Of a stretch of 47,757 bases of DNA, positions 33,977-47,757 are shown in pieces (position 1 is the first letter of the stretch; each line of letters starts with the position of its first letter). Position numbers and translations under genes: made by a program. The DNA is from Victivallaceae bacterium (GTDB lineage: Bacteria > Verrucomicrobiota > Lentisphaeria > Victivallales > Victivallaceae): contig JAKSOF010000016.1 of the NCBI GenBank assembly GCA_024405735.1, positions 1 to 47,757 on the forward strand, given 5' to 3'. The notes under the pieces are model-generated. The model saw nothing but the letters and a program-made list of their open reading frames with translations. It did no database searches and had not been told where the DNA came from.

Positions 33977-36334
33977 TTAAAACATCTGCACGATGATTTT
34001 GACGAGAAACGCCGCGCCCCAGGCAAGAAGACATTGCCATACGGCGACGATCACCGCCCAGAGCGTGCCGAGTTCGCGCCGGATCGCGGCGATCGCGGCG
34101 ACGCACGGGGTGTAGAGCAAAGTGAAAATCAACAGCGCCGCCGCCGCCGCCGTGGAGAGGTAAGTGTGCAAATCGACGCCGTTGTCCAGCAGGACGTTGA
34201 GCGAAGAAACGACGCTTTCCTTGGCGCTGACTCCGGTGATCAGCGAAACGCAAATGCGCCAGTCGCCCAATCCGAGAGGAGCCATCAAAGGCGACAGAAA
34301 TCCGGCGATCTTCGCCAATATGCTTTCACCCTGATCGGCAACCATATTCAAATGCAGATCAAACGTGCTGAGCAACCAGATCACCATCGATGCAAAAAAG
34401 ATCACGGTAAAGGCGCGTTGCAAAAAGTCCTTGATCTTTTCCCAGAGCAACTGGCAGACGTTTTTGATCCCCGGCATCCGGTAGTTGGGCAATTCCATCA
34501 CAAAGGGAACCGCTTCTCCCCGGAAAAGCGTCTTTTTCAAAATCAGCGCCACGAGCAGCGCGAAGCAGACGCCGACAAGATACAAAAGCGTCATCACCAG
34601 TGCGCCGTGCCCCGGAAAAAACGCCGCGACAAAGAAAGCGTAGATCGGCAGTTTCGCCGAACAGCTCATAAAGGGCGTCAAAAGGATCGTCATTTTGCGG
34701 TCGCGCGCCGACGGCAGTGTCCGCGTCGCCATCACGGCGGGGACGGTGCATCCGAAGCCGATCAGCATCGGCACGATGCTCCGTCCGGAAAGACCGATCC
34801 GGCGGAAAAGTTTATCCATCACAAATGCGACGCGGGCGATATAGCCGCTGTCTTCCAGCATCGAGAGAAAAAAGAAAAGCGTCACGATGATCGGTAAAAA
34901 ACTCAAAACGCTGCCGACTCCGGTGAAAACGCCGTCAAGCACCAGACTTTGCCAGGTGGGATTCACCCCCGTCCCGATCAAAAAGGATCTCATTTTCTCG
35001 TCGCAGAAACCGATGCCGGACTCCAGGATCCCCTGCAAAAACGCGCCGATCACGCCAAACGTCAGATAAAAGACGAGCGCCATAATGGCGAAAAACGCGG
35101 GGATCGCCGTATATTTCCCCGTCAGCACGGCGTCGATCGCGCGACTGCGCCGATGCTCCTTGCTCTCGACGGGTTTGCGCACGGTTTCGCGGCAGACTTT
35201 GCGGATAAAGGAAAAGCGCATATCCGCAATAGCGGCGGCGCGGTCCAAACCGCGCTCCTTTTCCATCTGGATGATGATATGCTCAAGCATATCGCGCTCG
35301 TTTTCGTCAAGGCGGAGTTTCTGCAAAATCAGCAAATCCCCCTCGATGACTTTGCACGCCGCAAAGTGACGCGGTATCCCCGCTTCGTCGGCGTGATCCT
35401 CGATCAGATGGATGATCGAGTGGATCGCCCGGTGCACGGCGCCGCCGTGCTCTCCCACATCGCAGAAATCCTGTCTTTTGGGCGCTTCCTGATAGCGCGC
35501 GATATGCAGGGCGTGACTGACCAGTTCGTCAATGCCCTCGCCGCGGCAGGCGGCGAGCGGGATCACCGGGATCCCCAGCGCCGCCTCCAGTTTGTTGACG
35601 AGGATCGCCCCGCCGTTGTTGCGCACTTCATCCATCATATTGAGCGCGAGCACCATCGGTACGCCCAACTCCAGCAATTGCATCGTCAGATACAAGTTGC
35701 GGGTGATATTGGTCGCATCGACGATATTGATGATCGCATGCGGCTTTTCGCCGAGGATGAATTTGCGCGTCACCAGTTCTTCGGCGCTGTACGGCGACAT
35801 CGAATAGATGCCGGGCAAATCGGTCACTTGGGTAAAGAGATGCTTTTTGATGCGCCCGTCTTTCCGGCTGACGGTAACGCCGGGGAAATTGCCGACGTGC
35901 TGATTGGCGCCGGTCAATTCGTTGAAAAGCGTGGTTTTGCCGCAATTCTGATTGCCGACGAGAGCGAAACGGAGCAACGTCCCCTCCGGAAAAGCGGCTT
36001 TTTTCTCCCCCGTTTGCTCCTCGTGATATTTGCCTTCCTCACCGAAACCGGGGTGGATCGCCTGATTGGCGGGAAGCGTGTCCGCGACGGCGGATTCCTG
36101 CGCTTTTTCCGCGACCTGCCGGATCTCGATACGCGCCGCATCGGCGAGCCGGAGCGTCAGATTGTAATCGTAGATCAGCAACTCCATCGGATCGCCCATC
36201 GGAGCGTACTTAAGGAGTTTCACCCGGGTACCGGGGATCATTCCCATATCCAGAAAGTGCTGGCGCAACGCCCCTTCCCCGCCGACGGCGAGAATTTCGG
36301 CGCTGCTGCCGACGGGCAACTCGCGAAGCGTCAT
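33977..36334 (-). CDS. feoB: FeoA-FeoB fusion ferrous iron transporter
   Basis: 785 residues. The first 75 residues are a FeoA SH3-like domain (TLRELPVGSSAEILAVGG ... MGMIPGTRVKLL). A linker (80-115) joins it to the FeoB G-domain: GNQNCGKTTLFNEL (G1), FPGVTVSRKDG (G2), DLPGIYSM (G3), NMMDE (G4). Helical guanine-dissociation inhibitor and membrane domains with paired gate motifs follow (PMLIGFGCTVPAVMATRTL, FMSCSAKLPIYAFFV). FeoA and FeoB are usually separate proteins; the fusion is known in some anaerobes. It imports Fe(II) across the inner membrane. GAGGGGA precedes the ATG. An operator-like repeat covers the promoter. Confidence 0.96.
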   Translation of the reverse strand: MTLRELPVGSSAEILAVGGEGALRQHFLDMGMIPGTRVKLLKYAPMGDPMELLIYDYNLTLRLADAARIEIRQVAEKAQESAVADTLPANQAIHPGFGEEGKYHEEQTGEKKAAFPEGTLLRFALVGNQNCGKTTLFNELTGANQHVGNFPGVTVSRKDGRIKKHLFTQVTDLPGIYSMSPYSAEELVTRKFILGEKPHAIINIVDATNITRNLYLTMQLLELGVPMVLALNMMDEVRNNGGAILVNKLEAALGIPVIPLAACRGEGIDELVSHALHIARYQEAPKRQDFCDVGEHGGAVHRAIHSIIHLIEDHADEAGIPRHFAACKVIEGDLLILQKLRLDENERDMLEHIIIQMEKERGLDRAAAIADMRFSFIRKVCRETVRKPVESKEHRRSRAIDAVLTGKYTAIPAFFAIMALVFYLTFGVIGAFLQGILESGIGFCDEKMRSFLIGTGVNPTWQSLVLDGVFTGVGSVLSFLPIIVTLFFFLSMLEDSGYIARVAFVMDKLFRRIGLSGRSIVPMLIGFGCTVPAVMATRTLPSARDRKMTILLTPFMSCSAKLPIYAFFVAAFFPGHGALVMTLLYLVGVCFALLVALILKKTLFRGEAVPFVMELPNYRMPGIKNVCQLLWEKIKDFLQRAFTVIFFASMVIWLLSTFDLHLNMVADQGESILAKIAGFLSPLMAPLGLGDWRICVSLITGVSAKESVVSSLNVLLDNGVDLHTYLSTAAAAALLIFTLLYTPCVAAIAAIRRELGTLWAVIVAVWQCLLAWGAAFLVKIIVQMF

Positions 36335-41419: not shown

Positions 41420-43054
41420 TCACCCGTTTATCGCGATGATCCGGTCACAGCTTTGCAATGCGGCTTTGCGGTGGGAAATGACGAGGATCGTCACTTTGCC
41501 GTGAAGCGAGGCGAGCGTTTCCGCAAATTCCGACTCGGTCATCGCGTCAAGCGCGCTTGTCGCCTCATCGAGCAGCAGAAGTTTCACGCCGCGCCGGCAG
41601 AGAGCGCGCGCGATGGCGAGCCGTTGCCGCTGACCGCCGGACAAATTGTTGCCGTCGGGGTCGATCCGGTGATCCAGCGCGCCCGGCAGACTCCGCACGA
41701 AATCGTCGATACGGGCAAGTTTCAAGGCGCGGTAAACATCCTCATCGGAGACCGCCTCGCCAAAAGTGAGATTATACCGCAAGGTATCTTCAAAAAGCGG
41801 AATATGTTGTGGTACAAAACCAGTCTGCCGCCGGAAAGACGTCAACACTTCGTTCAACGCTTTCCCGTCGACGCGGATCTCTCCCGACTCCGGCGCATAA
41901 AAGCCGAGCAACAGCGAAAACAACGTCGATTTGCCGCTTCCCGTGCGCCCCGTGACGCCGACGCATTCCCCCGGTTTCACGGTAAGGGAAAAACGATCGA
42001 AAATTTTTTGTCCGCCGGGATAACCGAAAACAAGATCGCGAATTTCCACGCTTCCGGAAAATTCAAATCCGTCCGCTTCATTGGAAATCCTCTCCTCCGG
42101 GATCGCGGTAAAATCACGGTAAAAATCGTTCCACAGCGGTTCATATTGCCGCAACAAAGCCGTTGCGTAATGCATCCGGCTGAATGCCGGAAGCAAACGC
42201 GAAAAAACGGCGATCAACGCGGCAAAATCCAGCAAGATCGTCGGATGCGGCACTTTCAACAGCAACATTACGCACAACAGTCCGAAAAGATATAGCAAGG
42301 CGGAACTTTCCAGTATCAGCCGGGGCGCCTGTCCGAAATCATAGAGTTTTTTCCGCATCGGAAAAAGTTTCTCCTGATATGCGGCATAGCGTTGCGAAAA
42401 AAAGTTTTCTCCGCCGAATGCGCGCAATGTTTCCAATGCGTCAAGCGATTGCGCCGCAAGTTTGCCCGCTTCAAGATCAAGCGTCCCCGCCGCCGCGCCG
42501 AGCCGGCGGTTCCGGCGGTAAAAAAACCACACTACGCCAATTGTCGCCGCGCCGAAAAAAAGCACACCGGAAAGTGCAATATAAGGCAAATAAACCGCAA
42601 GCGCCGCGAGCAATACAGCGCAGAGCATCACGTCCGCGACCAACTGCATCGCCGGCAAAAACGCCCGTTCGCAAAGCAGATTCACCCGCGACAGCGACAA
42701 AGCGCAATCCGCGCCGCCGCGCCGCCGGATCCCGGCAAAATCGCCGTGGAGATAGCGGTCATACAGCGTTGCGCACCATTTTTGCTGTTTTTGATAGACG
42801 AAATCCGATTGCAGAGAGACGATCCAATAGGCGAAAAGATTTTTGCCGATCAGCAAAACGAGCACAAGCAAGAGCAATCCGGCGCTGACCAGAGAAGTCT
42901 TTCCCTGCAGAAAAAATTTGACGGCGACGACGAAAACACCGATCCCCGCCATTTCCAGCACGGCGGAAACGAACATCGCGATCTCAATGCCGAAACGCTT
43001 CCAGCGATCGCCCGGGGAGAGCAGAGAATTGAGTTGTCCAAAAAGTTTCAGCAT
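41420..43054 (-). CDS. ABC exporter, fused permease and ATPase
   Basis: 544 residues. Six membrane helices occupy 20-300. The ATPase has Walker A VTGRTGSGKST, Q-loop FVPQHI, signature NLSGGQRQRLAIARAL, Walker B LLLLDEATSALD and H-loop VISHR. It is a half-exporter acting as a dimer. Closest in feel are PglK/MsbA-like flippases, but the cargo cannot be told. The RBS is AGGAGC. It lies 69 nt after the small membrane protein gene downstream of mraZ, probably in the same transcript. The permease helices contain several cysteines (DRYLHGDFAG, GGADCALSLSRVNLLCERAF). Confidence 0.92.
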   Translation of the reverse strand: MLKLFGQLNSLLSPGDRWKRFGIEIAMFVSAVLEMAGIGVFVVAVKFFLQGKTSLVSAGLLLLVLVLLIGKNLFAYWIVSLQSDFVYQKQQKWCATLYDRYLHGDFAGIRRRGGADCALSLSRVNLLCERAFLPAMQLVADVMLCAVLLAALAVYLPYIALSGVLFFGAATIGVVWFFYRRNRRLGAAAGTLDLEAGKLAAQSLDALETLRAFGGENFFSQRYAAYQEKLFPMRKKLYDFGQAPRLILESSALLYLFGLLCVMLLLKVPHPTILLDFAALIAVFSRLLPAFSRMHYATALLRQYEPLWNDFYRDFTAIPEERISNEADGFEFSGSVEIRDLVFGYPGGQKIFDRFSLTVKPGECVGVTGRTGSGKSTLFSLLLGFYAPESGEIRVDGKALNEVLTSFRRQTGFVPQHIPLFEDTLRYNLTFGEAVSDEDVYRALKLARIDDFVRSLPGALDHRIDPDGNNLSGGQRQRLAIARALCRRGVKLLLLDEATSALDAMTESEFAETLASLHGKVTILVISHRKAALQSCDRIIAING

Positions 43055-43123: not shown

Positions 43124-43354
43124 TCAATGACGGGAAGCCAGACGCAATATCAAAAGCGGATTTTTTTCCGCGAGATGATTCCAGTTCTGACCGTTTTTCG
43201 GGAAGCGCATCGAAACGTTCTTTGCCATTTTCTGCGCAGTCGTCACCGACTGCGGCGCATCGTGATGAAGCCGTACGCCAGACAAGAGCATCGTAATGGA
43301 AAAAAAGACCGCGACAAGCAGAATTTTGACCAACGGTGAAGCATTACGATTCAT
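43124..43354 (-). CDS. small single-span membrane protein in the mraZ operon
   Basis: 76 residues. The ATG overlaps the mraZ end by 11 nt and has AAGGAGG 8 nt before it inside mraZ, so it is a real and coupled gene. A short basic start (NRNASPLVK) precedes one helix (ILLVAVFFSITMLLSGV). The remaining 49 residues face the periplasm and are basic and polar. Topology and place resemble FtsL, which is often encoded near mraZ, but the tail is shorter than FtsL's and lacks a leucine heptad coiled coil. I do not assign it. Confidence 0.72.
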   Translation of the reverse strand: MNRNASPLVKILLVAVFFSITMLLSGVRLHHDAPQSVTTAQKMAKNVSMRFPKNGQNWNHLAEKNPLLILRLASRH

Positions 43355-43847
43355 GAGAAACGGCCTCCTTCTGATTCAATTCCATTTGACGTTTGTTTTT
43401 TTCTGCGCGTAAAATATCATCCATTTCCGCTTCAAAGCGGTCGGCTGCCCAAATTTCGACGCCGATCTCGACGCCGACGACCTTTGCCGCTTCTCCCGGG
43501 AACAATCCGGCAAAACGCTGCAGGACTTCCGGCAAAGTCACCCTGCCCTGACGGCTGATTTTAGCGGCACTTGCCATCGAGCCGAAACGGCGCAACGAAC
43601 GGCGGGCGGCAAAACTTGCTCCGACCGCGTCCAGATCGCCGAGTTCCCGGCGGCGCATTTCCTGGTAGACTTCCTCCGGATAGACCGCAACCGCCCCCTC
43701 CGGCAAGCCGAAAAGCACGACTTCCCCGTCGCAACGGCGCAGAAAATCCTCGACCGTCGCCGCCGTCAGCCGCACCCTGCCCGCGCCGTCGACACGGCAG
43801 GAATCCATTCCGCAAAAACTCAACATCGCAGCCGTCGTGCCTTTCAT
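43344..43847 (-). CDS. mraZ: MraZ-like transcriptional regulator
   Basis: 167 residues from ATG 43847 (GGA upstream; an ATG at 43826 is possible). Two SpoVT/AbrB-like half-repeats are seen: VDGAGRVRLT near residues 19-28, and ISRQGRVTLPEVL near 96-108, followed by VGVEIGVEIWAADRFE, matching the MraZ pattern D-x-GR-x-P and G-x-EIW. In other bacteria MraZ is the first gene of the division and cell-wall cluster and represses its own promoter through 10-bp-spaced boxes. Here it is followed by a small membrane protein and an ABC exporter, with no rsmH. A 10-bp-periodic box array lies upstream. Confidence 0.85.
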   Translation of the reverse strand: MKGTTAAMLSFCGMDSCRVDGAGRVRLTAATVEDFLRRCDGEVVLFGLPEGAVAVYPEEVYQEMRRRELGDLDAVGASFAARRSLRRFGSMASAAKISRQGRVTLPEVLQRFAGLFPGEAAKVVGVEIGVEIWAADRFEAEMDDILRAEKNKRQMELNQKEAVSHES

Positions 43848-43853
43848 TTTATT

Positions 43854-43904
43854 CCAATATTCTCCATTTATTGTCAATATAATCCAATTTTTTCCAAAAT
43901 ACAA
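43854..43904 (-). promoter_or_regulatory. mraZ promoter overlaid by a 10-bp-periodic box array
   Basis: On the minus strand TTGTAT (43904-43899), 17-bp spacer, TATATT (43881-43876). On the plus strand the box TCCA(A/T) has its CC at 43854, 43864, 43884 and 43894, with a degenerate copy (GTCAA) at 43874. On the minus strand these read TTGGA at exact 10-bp steps. This matches the known MraZ operator layout (repeats of TGGGN with 5-nt spacers). Confidence 0.7.
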
Positions 43905-43934: not shown

Positions 43935-43960
43935 AAAAAAAATCCCTCCGGGCGGAGGGA
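43935..43960 (-). terminator. intrinsic terminator of the rhodanese gene
   Basis: On the minus strand TCCCTCC, GCCC loop, GGAGGGA (43960-43943), then a run of eight T (43942-43935). It insulates the rhodanese gene from mraZ. Confidence 0.85.
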
Positions 43961-44523: not shown

Positions 44524-45054
44524 ATGAAAAAACTGCTGATCGCTTCGTTGGTCGCGGCGGGCGCACTCGCCGGAGCCATTGAATTCCGCATTGAGGGGGA
44601 ACATCTTCCCCATAAGGGCGCGTGGGCGGACGGCGGACAGAATTCCGCAGTCGGCACACGCGTCGCGACCTCCAACAAGAACTTCCAAAAGGGCAACGAC
44701 GATGCCAACAAGGGCACCGGCACTTACGGAGTTCCCGCTCCCGGGAAATATTTCGTCTGGGTCCGCACGCTCGATTTCGGCGAAGGCTACCGCAAGACGC
44801 AGATCAAGATCAACGGTCAGAGCATCGGCAAATTCGGCGACGGCAAAGTCGCCGTCAAGGGCAAACCCGAATACAAGTGGAAGCGTGCGATGCTCCCCGT
44901 CGAACTCACGGACAAAATCGCGTTGGAAGCGATCCCGTTCGCCGGCGTCAGCCGCCTCGACTCGATCATTTTCACGCAGGATGAAAATTTCAAGCCCTCC
45001 GATGATGCCGCGGAAGTGACCGACAGCATCGAAGAAATGGAAGCGCTTGACTAA
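44524..45054 (+). CDS. secreted stand-alone carbohydrate-binding-like domain protein
   Basis: 176 residues. A Sec signal peptide (KKLLIASLVAAGALAGA) is followed by one beta-sandwich of about 130 residues: EFRIEGEHL, PAPGKYFVWVRT, GYRKTQIKINGQSIGKFGDG, KRAMLPVELTD, ALEAIPFAGVSRLDSIIFT. The pattern (E at the first strand, Y/W-VR, R-DSI-FT) is that of CBM35/CBM6-like domains. The acidic tail ends EEMEALD. The next gene has the same domain at its N-terminus fused to a large hydrolase-like protein. It has a perfect promoter and a 15-bp terminator, so it is likely abundant. Binding of a glycan is inferred. Confidence 0.82.
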   Translation: MKKLLIASLVAAGALAGAIEFRIEGEHLPHKGAWADGGQNSAVGTRVATSNKNFQKGNDDANKGTGTYGVPAPGKYFVWVRTLDFGEGYRKTQIKINGQSIGKFGDGKVAVKGKPEYKWKRAMLPVELTDKIALEAIPFAGVSRLDSIIFTQDENFKPSDDAAEVTDSIEEMEALD

Positions 45055-45108: not shown

Positions 45109-45218
45109 TGCAAAAAAACAGTCGTTTCATCCCTCTTTGATTTTTATTTTCCGACTTTTGTGCTATTTTATTAGGTATCGTGTTTTTTTCACCCATAAAA
45201 CGACAGGAGAAACCAAGG

Positions 45219-47757
45219 ATGAAAAAATTTTTGACGTTGCTCGGCATCGCGCTTTGCGGAGTGCTTTCCGCCGCGACTTTCAAAGTCGAAGCGGAAAAGC
45301 TCAACGACACCGGCAAATGGATGATCGCCCCCGACGGGAAAGCCTCGGAACTCAAAATGCTCTACTCCAATTTGCAGTCGGGAATCGTCGCCAAAGGCTC
45401 GTTCAAAGTGGAAAAAGCAGGAGCGTACACGATGTATGTGCGTTCCAATTCCCAGGGCGGCGGCTACCGTAAAACCAAGATCTCGATCAACGGTGTCGGC
45501 GCGGGCAGTTTCGGCGACAAGCCGGGCACGAGCGGCTACATCTGGGAAAAGCGCAAACTCCCCGTCAAACTCAAGGAAGGTGAAAACAAGATCACCCTCA
45601 AAGCGGAATCCGGTTATTCGCGCATCGACACGATCCTCTTTACCGATGATGCCGCCTTCAATCCCGACAACGGCTTCGGCGAAGTCGCCAACGCCGAACG
45701 CATCGGCGAAGAAGTCATCCGCATCAATCTGCCAATTCAAGGCGCCAAAGGCAAACCGGAATTTCTCCTTTTCCACGGCAACCGTCCCTGGGTCGCCAAC
45801 GACTGCGCCGCGCTTTACGCCAAGGCGGGATTGCGCACGACTTGCGTCAACAGCGTTTATTTGAATGGCCTCGGCGGCGCGTCGATCAAACAATTTTTGA
45901 GCGACAAAGTCGAACCCAAACCGAAAGACGGCATCACCCCCAGTTTCGCCGCGCTGAAAAAATACAAGGCGGTGCTTTTCACCGCGATCCCGGCGGATAA
46001 TCAGAAAAAACTTTTCACTCCGGAGCGCATCGCCAAACTGAAGGAATACGTCGAAAACGGCGGCGTGGTCTTTTTCAACTGCAACGTACCGGATTCGCTG
46101 CAGGAACTTCTCCCCGTAACCTGGGATGGCGACCTCCTCAACGACGATGTCGAACAATTTGCGGCAAGCCGTCCGGAGGGCGAAGTCTATTCTTTCCTGC
46201 CGGAAAAACTTCCCGTCTTTTACGGTACGCATCTTGCGCAGCCGCTTCCCGGCGCCAAGGTGCTTTCCTATGTTCTTTCCCCCGGCGGCGACAAACTCGG
46301 CGCTTATATTGCGGAAAAAGAGATCGGCAAGGGCAAAGTCGTCTACTTCGCCTTTGACTGGAATCGCACTCGGGGATTGCGTCAGCTCTGGAGCTGGGCT
46401 TACGGTCAGCCGCTGATGGCGGCGATGGTGGGATATTCCGCCGATCTCAAAGTCGATCCGGCGAAACTCATGGAGCACAGCGCGATCATTCCGCAGCAGG
46501 AAGTCGCCGAAGCCAGCGTCAAAATCGACGATGTGAAATGGGATATTGCCGATGTCCGAGGCGTTACGCTCGAGGGAAATGCCGCCACTTTTGCCAACGG
46601 CACGAAACTTGTCATCAGCGACAAGGGTGCGGTTTCCGTCACCTACCCCGGTCAGCAAATCGCGCAACTGAATTTCACCGACTCGCCCAAAATGAAATTT
46701 TTCGGCGCAATGGAGCAGAATCTCGTCGGCGCGGAAGCCGTCGAAAATATGCGCAAAGCGGTCAAATCCAAAATCGTTTCCTGGCATTTCGACGGCGTTG
46801 AAGTTTCCGGCGACACGGTTTTGCTTCACTTCAGCAATGAGAGCGGCAAATACGACTGGCAGTTCAAAGCGGGGACGCTTGACCTTGACGGCCGCCACTA
46901 CGACTGCGTCGCCGACCGCATCCACGTCATCGAATACAAGGGCAACTTGCAGACGATCGACTTTCCGGCGGAGATCCGCCTCGGCGAAACGCTCGCCGGA
47001 CATCAGGTGAAGCGGCTTGCCTGCTACGCGGGACCGCGCGGTTACGCGGAATTCGACTATTCCGGCAAAAAAGCGCAGACTTGCGGCAGTTACGGATTTT
47101 TCTCGGCGGGACAGCCTTTCAGCTGGATCGTTGCGCCGCAGGGGATCTACTCAAGTTTCACCGAAGCGCCGCAGGTGGTCGAGGTGAATCCATCCGTCAG
47201 TCAGGGGGCAAAAGCGATCAAGGAAAACTTGTCCGTCACCGTCGGACGCCGCAAAGCGCCGATCACGACGAAATATATGTGGCACGGATTTTCCGCCGGA
47301 AAGGAAAATCCGCACAACGACTGGATGGCGATGTACCAGTTCCAGCGGCATAACTTGCGCAAAGCCGCCAACTTGCGCGAGATCCCCTCGGTGCCGACGG
47401 CGAGCCACACCAACACGCTGTCGGGCGACGAGCCGCGCAAGGCGATCGAAGCGGCGAAAAAACTCGGCTTCCAGCAGTTCCATCTGCAACTTTGCCCCAG
47501 CCCGATCGAAAGCCTCGACCGCACTAAAAACGAGAGGTTCGACATGATCCGCGAAAACGGGATGCGTCCGCGTCCCTGGACGGCGGCGGATTATACGCAC
47601 GGCGACGGTGAAAAAGTCCACGCCCGCAAGGATTTCTTCCTCCGCAATCCCGACGGTTCGATTTACGCCTACGGCGGCGTCCACCCGGTGCTGGATATGA
47701 ATAACCCCGAAGTGCAGAAATGGTACTTCGCGATCATTGAAAACGCGGTCAAGGCGG
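45219..47757 (+). CDS. large secreted glycoside-hydrolase-like protein, 3' end outside window
   Basis: The frame is open from ATG 45219 (CAAGGA before it) to the window end, 846 codons seen. A signal peptide (KKFLTLLGIALCGVLSAA) leads to a CBM-like domain (20-140) that mirrors the upstream protein (YTMYVRS, GGGYRKTKISINGVGAGSFG, SRIDTILFTDD). Residues about 170-400 resemble a class I glutamine-amidotransferase/ThuA-like fold (FLLFHGNRPW, NGGVVFFNCN, GKGKVVYFAFDWN), as in several polysaccharide-degrading enzymes. A beta-sandwich follows. From about 680 a TIM barrel with MWHGFSAGKENPHNDW, KLGFQQFHLQ and HPVLDMNNPEVQKWY begins, in the style of alpha-galactosidase-like families. The family and substrate are not certain, and catalytic residues may lie beyond the window. 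Confidence 0.85.
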   Translation, partial: MKKFLTLLGIALCGVLSAATFKVEAEKLNDTGKWMIAPDGKASELKMLYSNLQSGIVAKGSFKVEKAGAYTMYVRSNSQGGGYRKTKISINGVGAGSFGDKPGTSGYIWEKRKLPVKLKEGENKITLKAESGYSRIDTILFTDDAAFNPDNGFGEVANAERIGEEVIRINLPIQGAKGKPEFLLFHGNRPWVANDCAALYAKAGLRTTCVNSVYLNGLGGASIKQFLSDKVEPKPKDGITPSFAALKKYKAVLFTAIPADNQKKLFTPERIAKLKEYVENGGVVFFNCNVPDSLQELLPVTWDGDLLNDDVEQFAASRPEGEVYSFLPEKLPVFYGTHLAQPLPGAKVLSYVLSPGGDKLGAYIAEKEIGKGKVVYFAFDWNRTRGLRQLWSWAYGQPLMAAMVGYSADLKVDPAKLMEHSAIIPQQEVAEASVKIDDVKWDIADVRGVTLEGNAATFANGTKLVISDKGAVSVTYPGQQIAQLNFTDSPKMKFFGAMEQNLVGAEAVENMRKAVKSKIVSWHFDGVEVSGDTVLLHFSNESGKYDWQFKAGTLDLDGRHYDCVADRIHVIEYKGNLQTIDFPAEIRLGETLAGHQVKRLACYAGPRGYAEFDYSGKKAQTCGSYGFFSAGQPFSWIVAPQGIYSSFTEAPQVVEVNPSVSQGAKAIKENLSVTVGRRKAPITTKYMWHGFSAGKENPHNDWMAMYQFQRHNLRKAANLREIPSVPTASHTNTLSGDEPRKAIEAAKKLGFQQFHLQLCPSPIESLDRTKNERFDMIRENGMRPRPWTAADYTHGDGEKVHARKDFFLRNPDGSIYAYGGVHPVLDMNNPEVQKWYFAIIENAVKA

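Follow-up and report, generated by a model that had tools for sequence, protein, structure and literature searches.

The window, i.e. the whole stretch of 47,757 nucleotides analysed here (contig JAKSOF010000016.1 of a Victivallaceae bacterium of the gut), carries on its minus strand a gene of the MraZ superfamily, here named mraZ2, with an array of short repeats in front of it and the genes of a small membrane protein and of a transporter behind it. In the direction of transcription, the features are as follows:

43943..43960, minus: terminator-like hairpin between mraZ2 and the upstream rhodanese gene (7 pairs, 5 of them GC, then a T run; a pattern match only)
43899..43904, minus: -35-like hexamer TTGTAT, read from the sequence and absent from the list of a generic promoter scan
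43853..43897, minus: putative operator of five 10-bp-phased boxes, TTGGA, TTGGA, TTGAC, ATGGA and TTGGA; array kept by 75 of 78 distinct homologues
43876..43881, minus: -10-like hexamer TATATT, overlapping box 3, read from the sequence
43344..43826, minus: mraZ2, a diverged second MraZ paralogue of 160 aa (Pfam, AlphaFold, start from the homologue set)
43124..43354, minus: small single-span membrane protein of 76 aa, overlapping the end of mraZ2 by 11 bp, without a Pfam or NCBIfam family
41420..43054, minus: ABC exporter-type transporter (Pfam ABC_tran/ABC_membrane), 69 nt downstream and probably outside the conserved system

A second MraZ paralogue, with the dcw cluster intact

The mraZ2 product matches the Pfam MraZ family PF02381 (28.8 bits, cut-off 23), as do 26 of 26 aligned homologues, and its AlphaFold model (pLDDT 86.5) shows the MraZ fold with its two repeats of AbrB/SpoVT type. 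A sequence search against the PDB gave weak matches only, whereas the fold search was clear, returning 16 MraZ chains at E<=5e-5, 9sz7 among them. Foldseek E-values of the model ranged from 2e-9 to 7e-9 against solved MraZ proteins and reached 3e-8 against 9sz7, the complex of Mycoplasma genitalium MraZ with a 4-box promoter; the references for dcw MraZ were those of E. coli and M. genitalium (PDB 1n0e, 9qlg, 9r4j and 9sz7). The DxxxR motif is invariant in repeat 1 (D13-R17), and repeat 2 has QGR (R95), its Asp being replaced by Ser or Thr. An N-terminal CxxxxC was considered as a metal or redox site and dropped, neither Cys being invariant.

As to the start codon, TTG 43904 and ATG 43847 were rejected and ATG 43826 was retained, since every homologue starts with residues that correspond to MLSFCG, encoded from ATG 43826, and since the closest relative (locus L033, homologue 84% identical) lacks a start codon upstream of that position.

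Against the NCBIfam MraZ equivalog, MraZ2 scores 30.2 bits at best, below the cut-off of 162, and it is therefore filed as a paralogue within the MraZ superfamily and not as the dcw equivalog. The division gene is the first of the dcw cluster and is followed by rsmH; this holds for mraZ1 (locus L001) and does not for mraZ2, which does share with division mraZ a 10-bp direct-repeat array on its own promoter. The preliminary description had read the gene as an mraZ lying outside the division cluster, and rightly so: a normal mraZ-rsmH-ftsL-ftsI cluster, headed by mraZ1, was found on another contig of the same genome. The window gene is hence a second paralogue. The MraZ identity proposed earlier is thus upheld by Pfam and by fold, while the idea of a relocated dcw mraZ was given up, the dcw cluster being intact and the window gene an extra copy.

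Strong matches to MraZ2 (at least 110 bits) are confined to Lentisphaeria in a sample of 289 genomes of the phylum; the remaining matches score at most 52 bits and behave as dcw MraZ. By these matches MraZ2 is a Lentisphaeria-specific MraZ paralogue. Among its carriers is the cultured gut species Victivallis vadensis, whose locus L039 has all three of mraZ2, array and small protein. A literature search, to which subscription papers were largely out of reach, found no description of a second MraZ.

Elsewhere in the window, a minus-strand ORF of 785 aa (33977-36334) looks like a FeoB iron transporter to which a FeoA-like N-terminus has been joined. On the plus strand, 44524-45054 and 45180-47756 encode adjoining secreted-type proteins with a common N-terminal module, which form one similarity cluster; the shorter of the two (44524-45054) has no Pfam match.

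The array on the mraZ2 promoter

The minus strand over the mraZ2 promoter reads CTTGTATTTTGGAAAAAATTGGATTATATTGACAATAAATGGAGAATATTGGAATAAAATG. Its boxes are TTGGA (43897-43893), TTGGA (43887-43883), the degenerate TTGAC (43877-43873), ATGGA (43867-43863) and TTGGA (43857-43853), successive boxes being spaced by exactly 10 bp, and the array spans TTGTAT, the 17-bp spacer and TATATT. Five consecutive 10-bp phases, one of them degenerate, laid over the promoter, had been claimed at these positions, and the claim stands: on a 5-phase TGGA count the site scores 18/20, a value reached by none of 3000 dinucleotide shuffles and nowhere else in the window on either strand.

Absence of the array from close relatives would have spoken against an operator; instead, it recurs across the class, at the 75 distinct mraZ2 promoters already mentioned. 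TGG pairs upstream of the 78 mraZ2 genes number 239 at a distance of 10 bp, 167 at 20 bp and 103 at 30 bp, all other spacings up to 39 bp giving at most 15. Likewise, a score of at least 14/16 is attained by 69 of the 78 upstream regions and by 0 of 7800 shuffles, and period 10 alone stands out. The 75 delimited arrays hold 4-6 boxes each, with the consensus WTGGAAWAWA. Among 74 homologues, 58 have a -35-like TTG 7-8 nt ahead of the first TGG, and 57 have a -10-like hexamer 15 nt past that TGG.

MraZ is known to repress its own operon through direct-repeat boxes (PMC8475190). For comparison, 35 upstream regions of dcw mraZ were taken, with rsmH in every locus. Their arrays have the 10-bp step as well, with boxes reading WAGG, so the array sought at the dcw genes is there in phase and not in box sequence. 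Immediately before GG, 321 of 334 MraZ2 units (96%) have T, and 141 of 152 MraZ1 units (93%) have A; the mraZ2 array begins between -35 and -10 and encloses the -10, whereas the MraZ1 array comes directly after the -10. Since the boxes read WTGGA in one case and WAGG in the other within the same lineage, each paralogue appears to have its own operator, and the earlier suggestion of an MraZ-type operator with an adapted box is borne out. Because both the letter before GG and the promoter register differ, the two circuits are probably insulated from each other. Overall, MraZ2 resembles dcw MraZ in its two-repeat fold and its autoregulatory-type array of 10-bp direct repeats, and departs from it in being an extra paralogue with no rsmH behind it, with the box WTGGA and with an array that overlaps the spacer between -35 and -10.

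The array is essentially unique to the mraZ2 promoter, as judged from pattern searches of 78 family genomes. A 4-box array with at most one mismatch occurs in 33 of them and, among the matches listed, is in all cases the mraZ2 promoter of that genome; exact 3-box matches away from mraZ2 in the 78 genomes amount to 5, against 4 for a reversed-pattern control. A wider MraZ2 regulon was therefore rejected, other arrays in these 78 genomes being no more frequent than chance, and what the preliminary description called a regulon comes down to a single operon. In one genome, a 4-box WTGGW array without mismatches (G277:C115:5427-5461, plus strand) and mraZ2 lie on different contigs, and this array is a possible second target there. 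In M. genitalium, too, the MraZ motif occurs at the mraZ promoter only (PMC8475190), and the predicted target set of MraZ2 is similarly confined to its own operon.

The small membrane protein, the pedestal and the third SEDS

The order behind mraZ2, a 76-residue single-span protein (43354-43124) followed by an ABC exporter (43054-41420), is as first described. The small-protein gene is found behind mraZ2 almost everywhere, and its family, counted at significant E-values, adjoins mraZ2 only (44 of 46 family genomes with mraZ2, 0 of 32 without). Members are 70-111 aa long and share a single invariant Gly where the span ends and a C-terminal W..AA..NP..LL pattern; Pfam and NCBIfam searches gave scattered chance matches only. 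A likeness to FtsL, raised at the outset, lies in position, both being small single-span membrane proteins between mraZ and a PBP-type gene. It does not extend to the protein itself, and the identification as FtsL was rejected: the hhalign probability is 0.5%, and the low-confidence AlphaFold model has the TM helix followed by short helices, without one long periplasmic helix. The dcw cluster has a genuine ftsL, whose product measures 140-160 aa. At L128, L135 and L162-L164, an extra Cys-rich ORF of 76-79 aa stands between mraZ2 and the small membrane protein.

Outside Victivallaceae, the operon is usually mraZ2 - small protein - PBP pedestal - SEDS polymerase, an order that recalls a dcw cluster in shortened form. 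The pedestal gene lies within about 2 kb of mraZ2 on the same contig in 25 of the 27 non-Victivallaceae genomes that have both. Its product matches PF03717 (PBP_dimer) alone, with 32-60 bits in three homologues, and the frame stops at about 200-260 aa, where the SEDS gene begins at once; lacking a transpeptidase domain, the protein is not filed as a class B PBP. Proteins with a pedestal alone were not found beyond the class, where the matches are full-length PBPs of about 600 aa, nor did the literature search, within the same bounds of access, find any description of a pedestal-only SEDS partner.

In the genome of the window, the genes for the pedestal (203 aa) and the SEDS (366 aa) share 4 bp and lie on a separate contig, C12, unlinked to mraZ2, and a search for the 4-box pattern with at most one mismatch found no array at the pair. 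MraZ2 need not, therefore, control pedestal and SEDS in this genome. For the pedestal of this genome, the A4 profile gives a match and NCBIfam PBP2 a weak one. At L196, 1615-4898, a histidine-kinase-like gene of 520 aa comes immediately before the pair, so a different control may have been gained.

The C12 SEDS protein scores 180.9 bits on PF01098 (cut-off 26.4), and FtsW and RodA of this genome are encoded on contigs other than C12. The motif Asp of the third SEDS is kept, aligned with that of FtsW and RodA. In a tree of 55 SEDS rows, the pedestal-linked proteins form a third clade (100/100) beside FtsW and RodA and fall in neither of these; each of four outgroup genomes sampled has two SEDS proteins. 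Across 78 family genomes, mraZ2 and the pedestal occur together in 44, mraZ2 alone in 2, the pedestal alone in 9 and neither in 23 (Fisher p 2e-10, a figure that ignores shared ancestry); three of the nine genomes with a pedestal and no mraZ2 are at least 90% complete.

The pair is like FtsW-FtsI and RodA-PBP2 in that a SEDS protein with the conserved Asp stands beside a bPBP-type pedestal in overlapping genes, and unlike them in that the SEDS belongs to a third clade and its partner stops after the pedestal. SpoVD retains its transpeptidase domain, which the partner in Lentisphaeria lacks, and the Lentisphaeria SEDS scores nearer to FtsW than to SpoVE. SpoVE-SpoVD, the third SEDS-bPBP pair, found in spore formers (PMC10693644), is nonetheless comparable as an extra specialised pair on top of the standard two.

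Proposed regulation, alternatives and meaning

The reading favoured here, at a probability of about 0.72, is one of autorepression: MraZ2 acts as repressor of the operon it belongs to, and that operon was originally a second dcw-like cluster, compact in form, with the genes of a third peptidoglycan synthase. MraZ2, as a ring-like oligomer by analogy with the Mycoplasma structures, would bind the WTGGA boxes, in their 10-bp phase, over the mraZ2 promoter and, once bound, would block RNA polymerase and thereby keep expression of the operon at a fixed level; the sign of this control, repression and not activation, is assumed from the known MraZ case. In the ancestral operon, comprising mraZ2, the small single-span protein, the transpeptidase-less pedestal and the SEDS, MraZ2 would thus set the level of an extra polymerase module. 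The pedestal of class B PBPs activates the SEDS partner (PMC8078798), which explains why some bacteria need FtsI but not its transpeptidase activity (PMC8078798). Along the same line, the truncated pedestal probably switches on the glycan polymerase activity of the third SEDS but brings no cross-linking with it, and the pedestal-SEDS complex probably has the small protein as an accessory. In Victivallaceae, pedestal and SEDS would have moved to another locus devoid of the operator, mraZ2 being left with the small protein.

Four other readings may be weighed against this one. The small protein might act as a feedback sensor, holding MraZ2 at the membrane or releasing it, depending on what state the synthase is in. 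Its strict pairing with mraZ2, one-to-one even where pedestal and SEDS have moved away, speaks for such a sensor; yet its cytoplasmic part measures only about 6-12 residues and its fold model is of low confidence, and the reading is deemed unlikely. A single regulon, in which the dcw MraZ1 also reads the mraZ2 array and joins both clusters, would account for the shared 10-bp phase, GG core and protein family; given the change from A (93%) to T (96%) before GG and the different promoter registers, it appears slightly less likely still. The AbrB-type fold, an autoregulator by virtue of its array, and a small hydrophobic second gene that overlaps mraZ2 and is strictly paired with it also recall a toxin-antitoxin-like pair, i.e. 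an autorepressor with a small membrane toxin encoded behind it. Such a reading is very unlikely, for mraZ2 is single copy per genome and class-wide, and the pair sits inside a cell-wall operon in most non-Victivallaceae families. Finally, the export of an envelope component under a relocated MraZ regulon, as the preliminary description proposed, is hardly credible: the exporter follows on the same strand, 69 nt downstream, only in the window and in its closest relative L033, and was rejected as a conserved target, since it is not behind mraZ2 at the other loci examined, dcw mraZ is intact, and the conserved cargo behind the array is the small membrane protein and, ancestrally, the truncated PBP and SEDS.

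The favoured reading, of MraZ2 as repressor of its own wall-synthesis operon, may be carried further. Lentisphaeria may have evolved a complete second dcw-like system, in which a third SEDS is switched on by a transpeptidase-less pedestal together with a small accessory protein, under an MraZ of its own whose operator became orthogonal to the division MraZ through changes in the 10-bp box; the odds of this broader scenario are put at even.

MraZ is regarded as a single regulator, that of the dcw cluster. In the present case, two MraZ copies seem to have an operator each, the main difference between these being one conserved letter, and the two may serve as a natural experiment on DNA recognition by MraZ, a timely one now that structures of MraZ with its promoter are available. 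The operon, in turn, suggests a third SEDS synthase whose partner is devoid of a cross-linking domain, and such a synthase would directly test the model in which the PBP pedestal, and not the transpeptidase, activates the polymerase.
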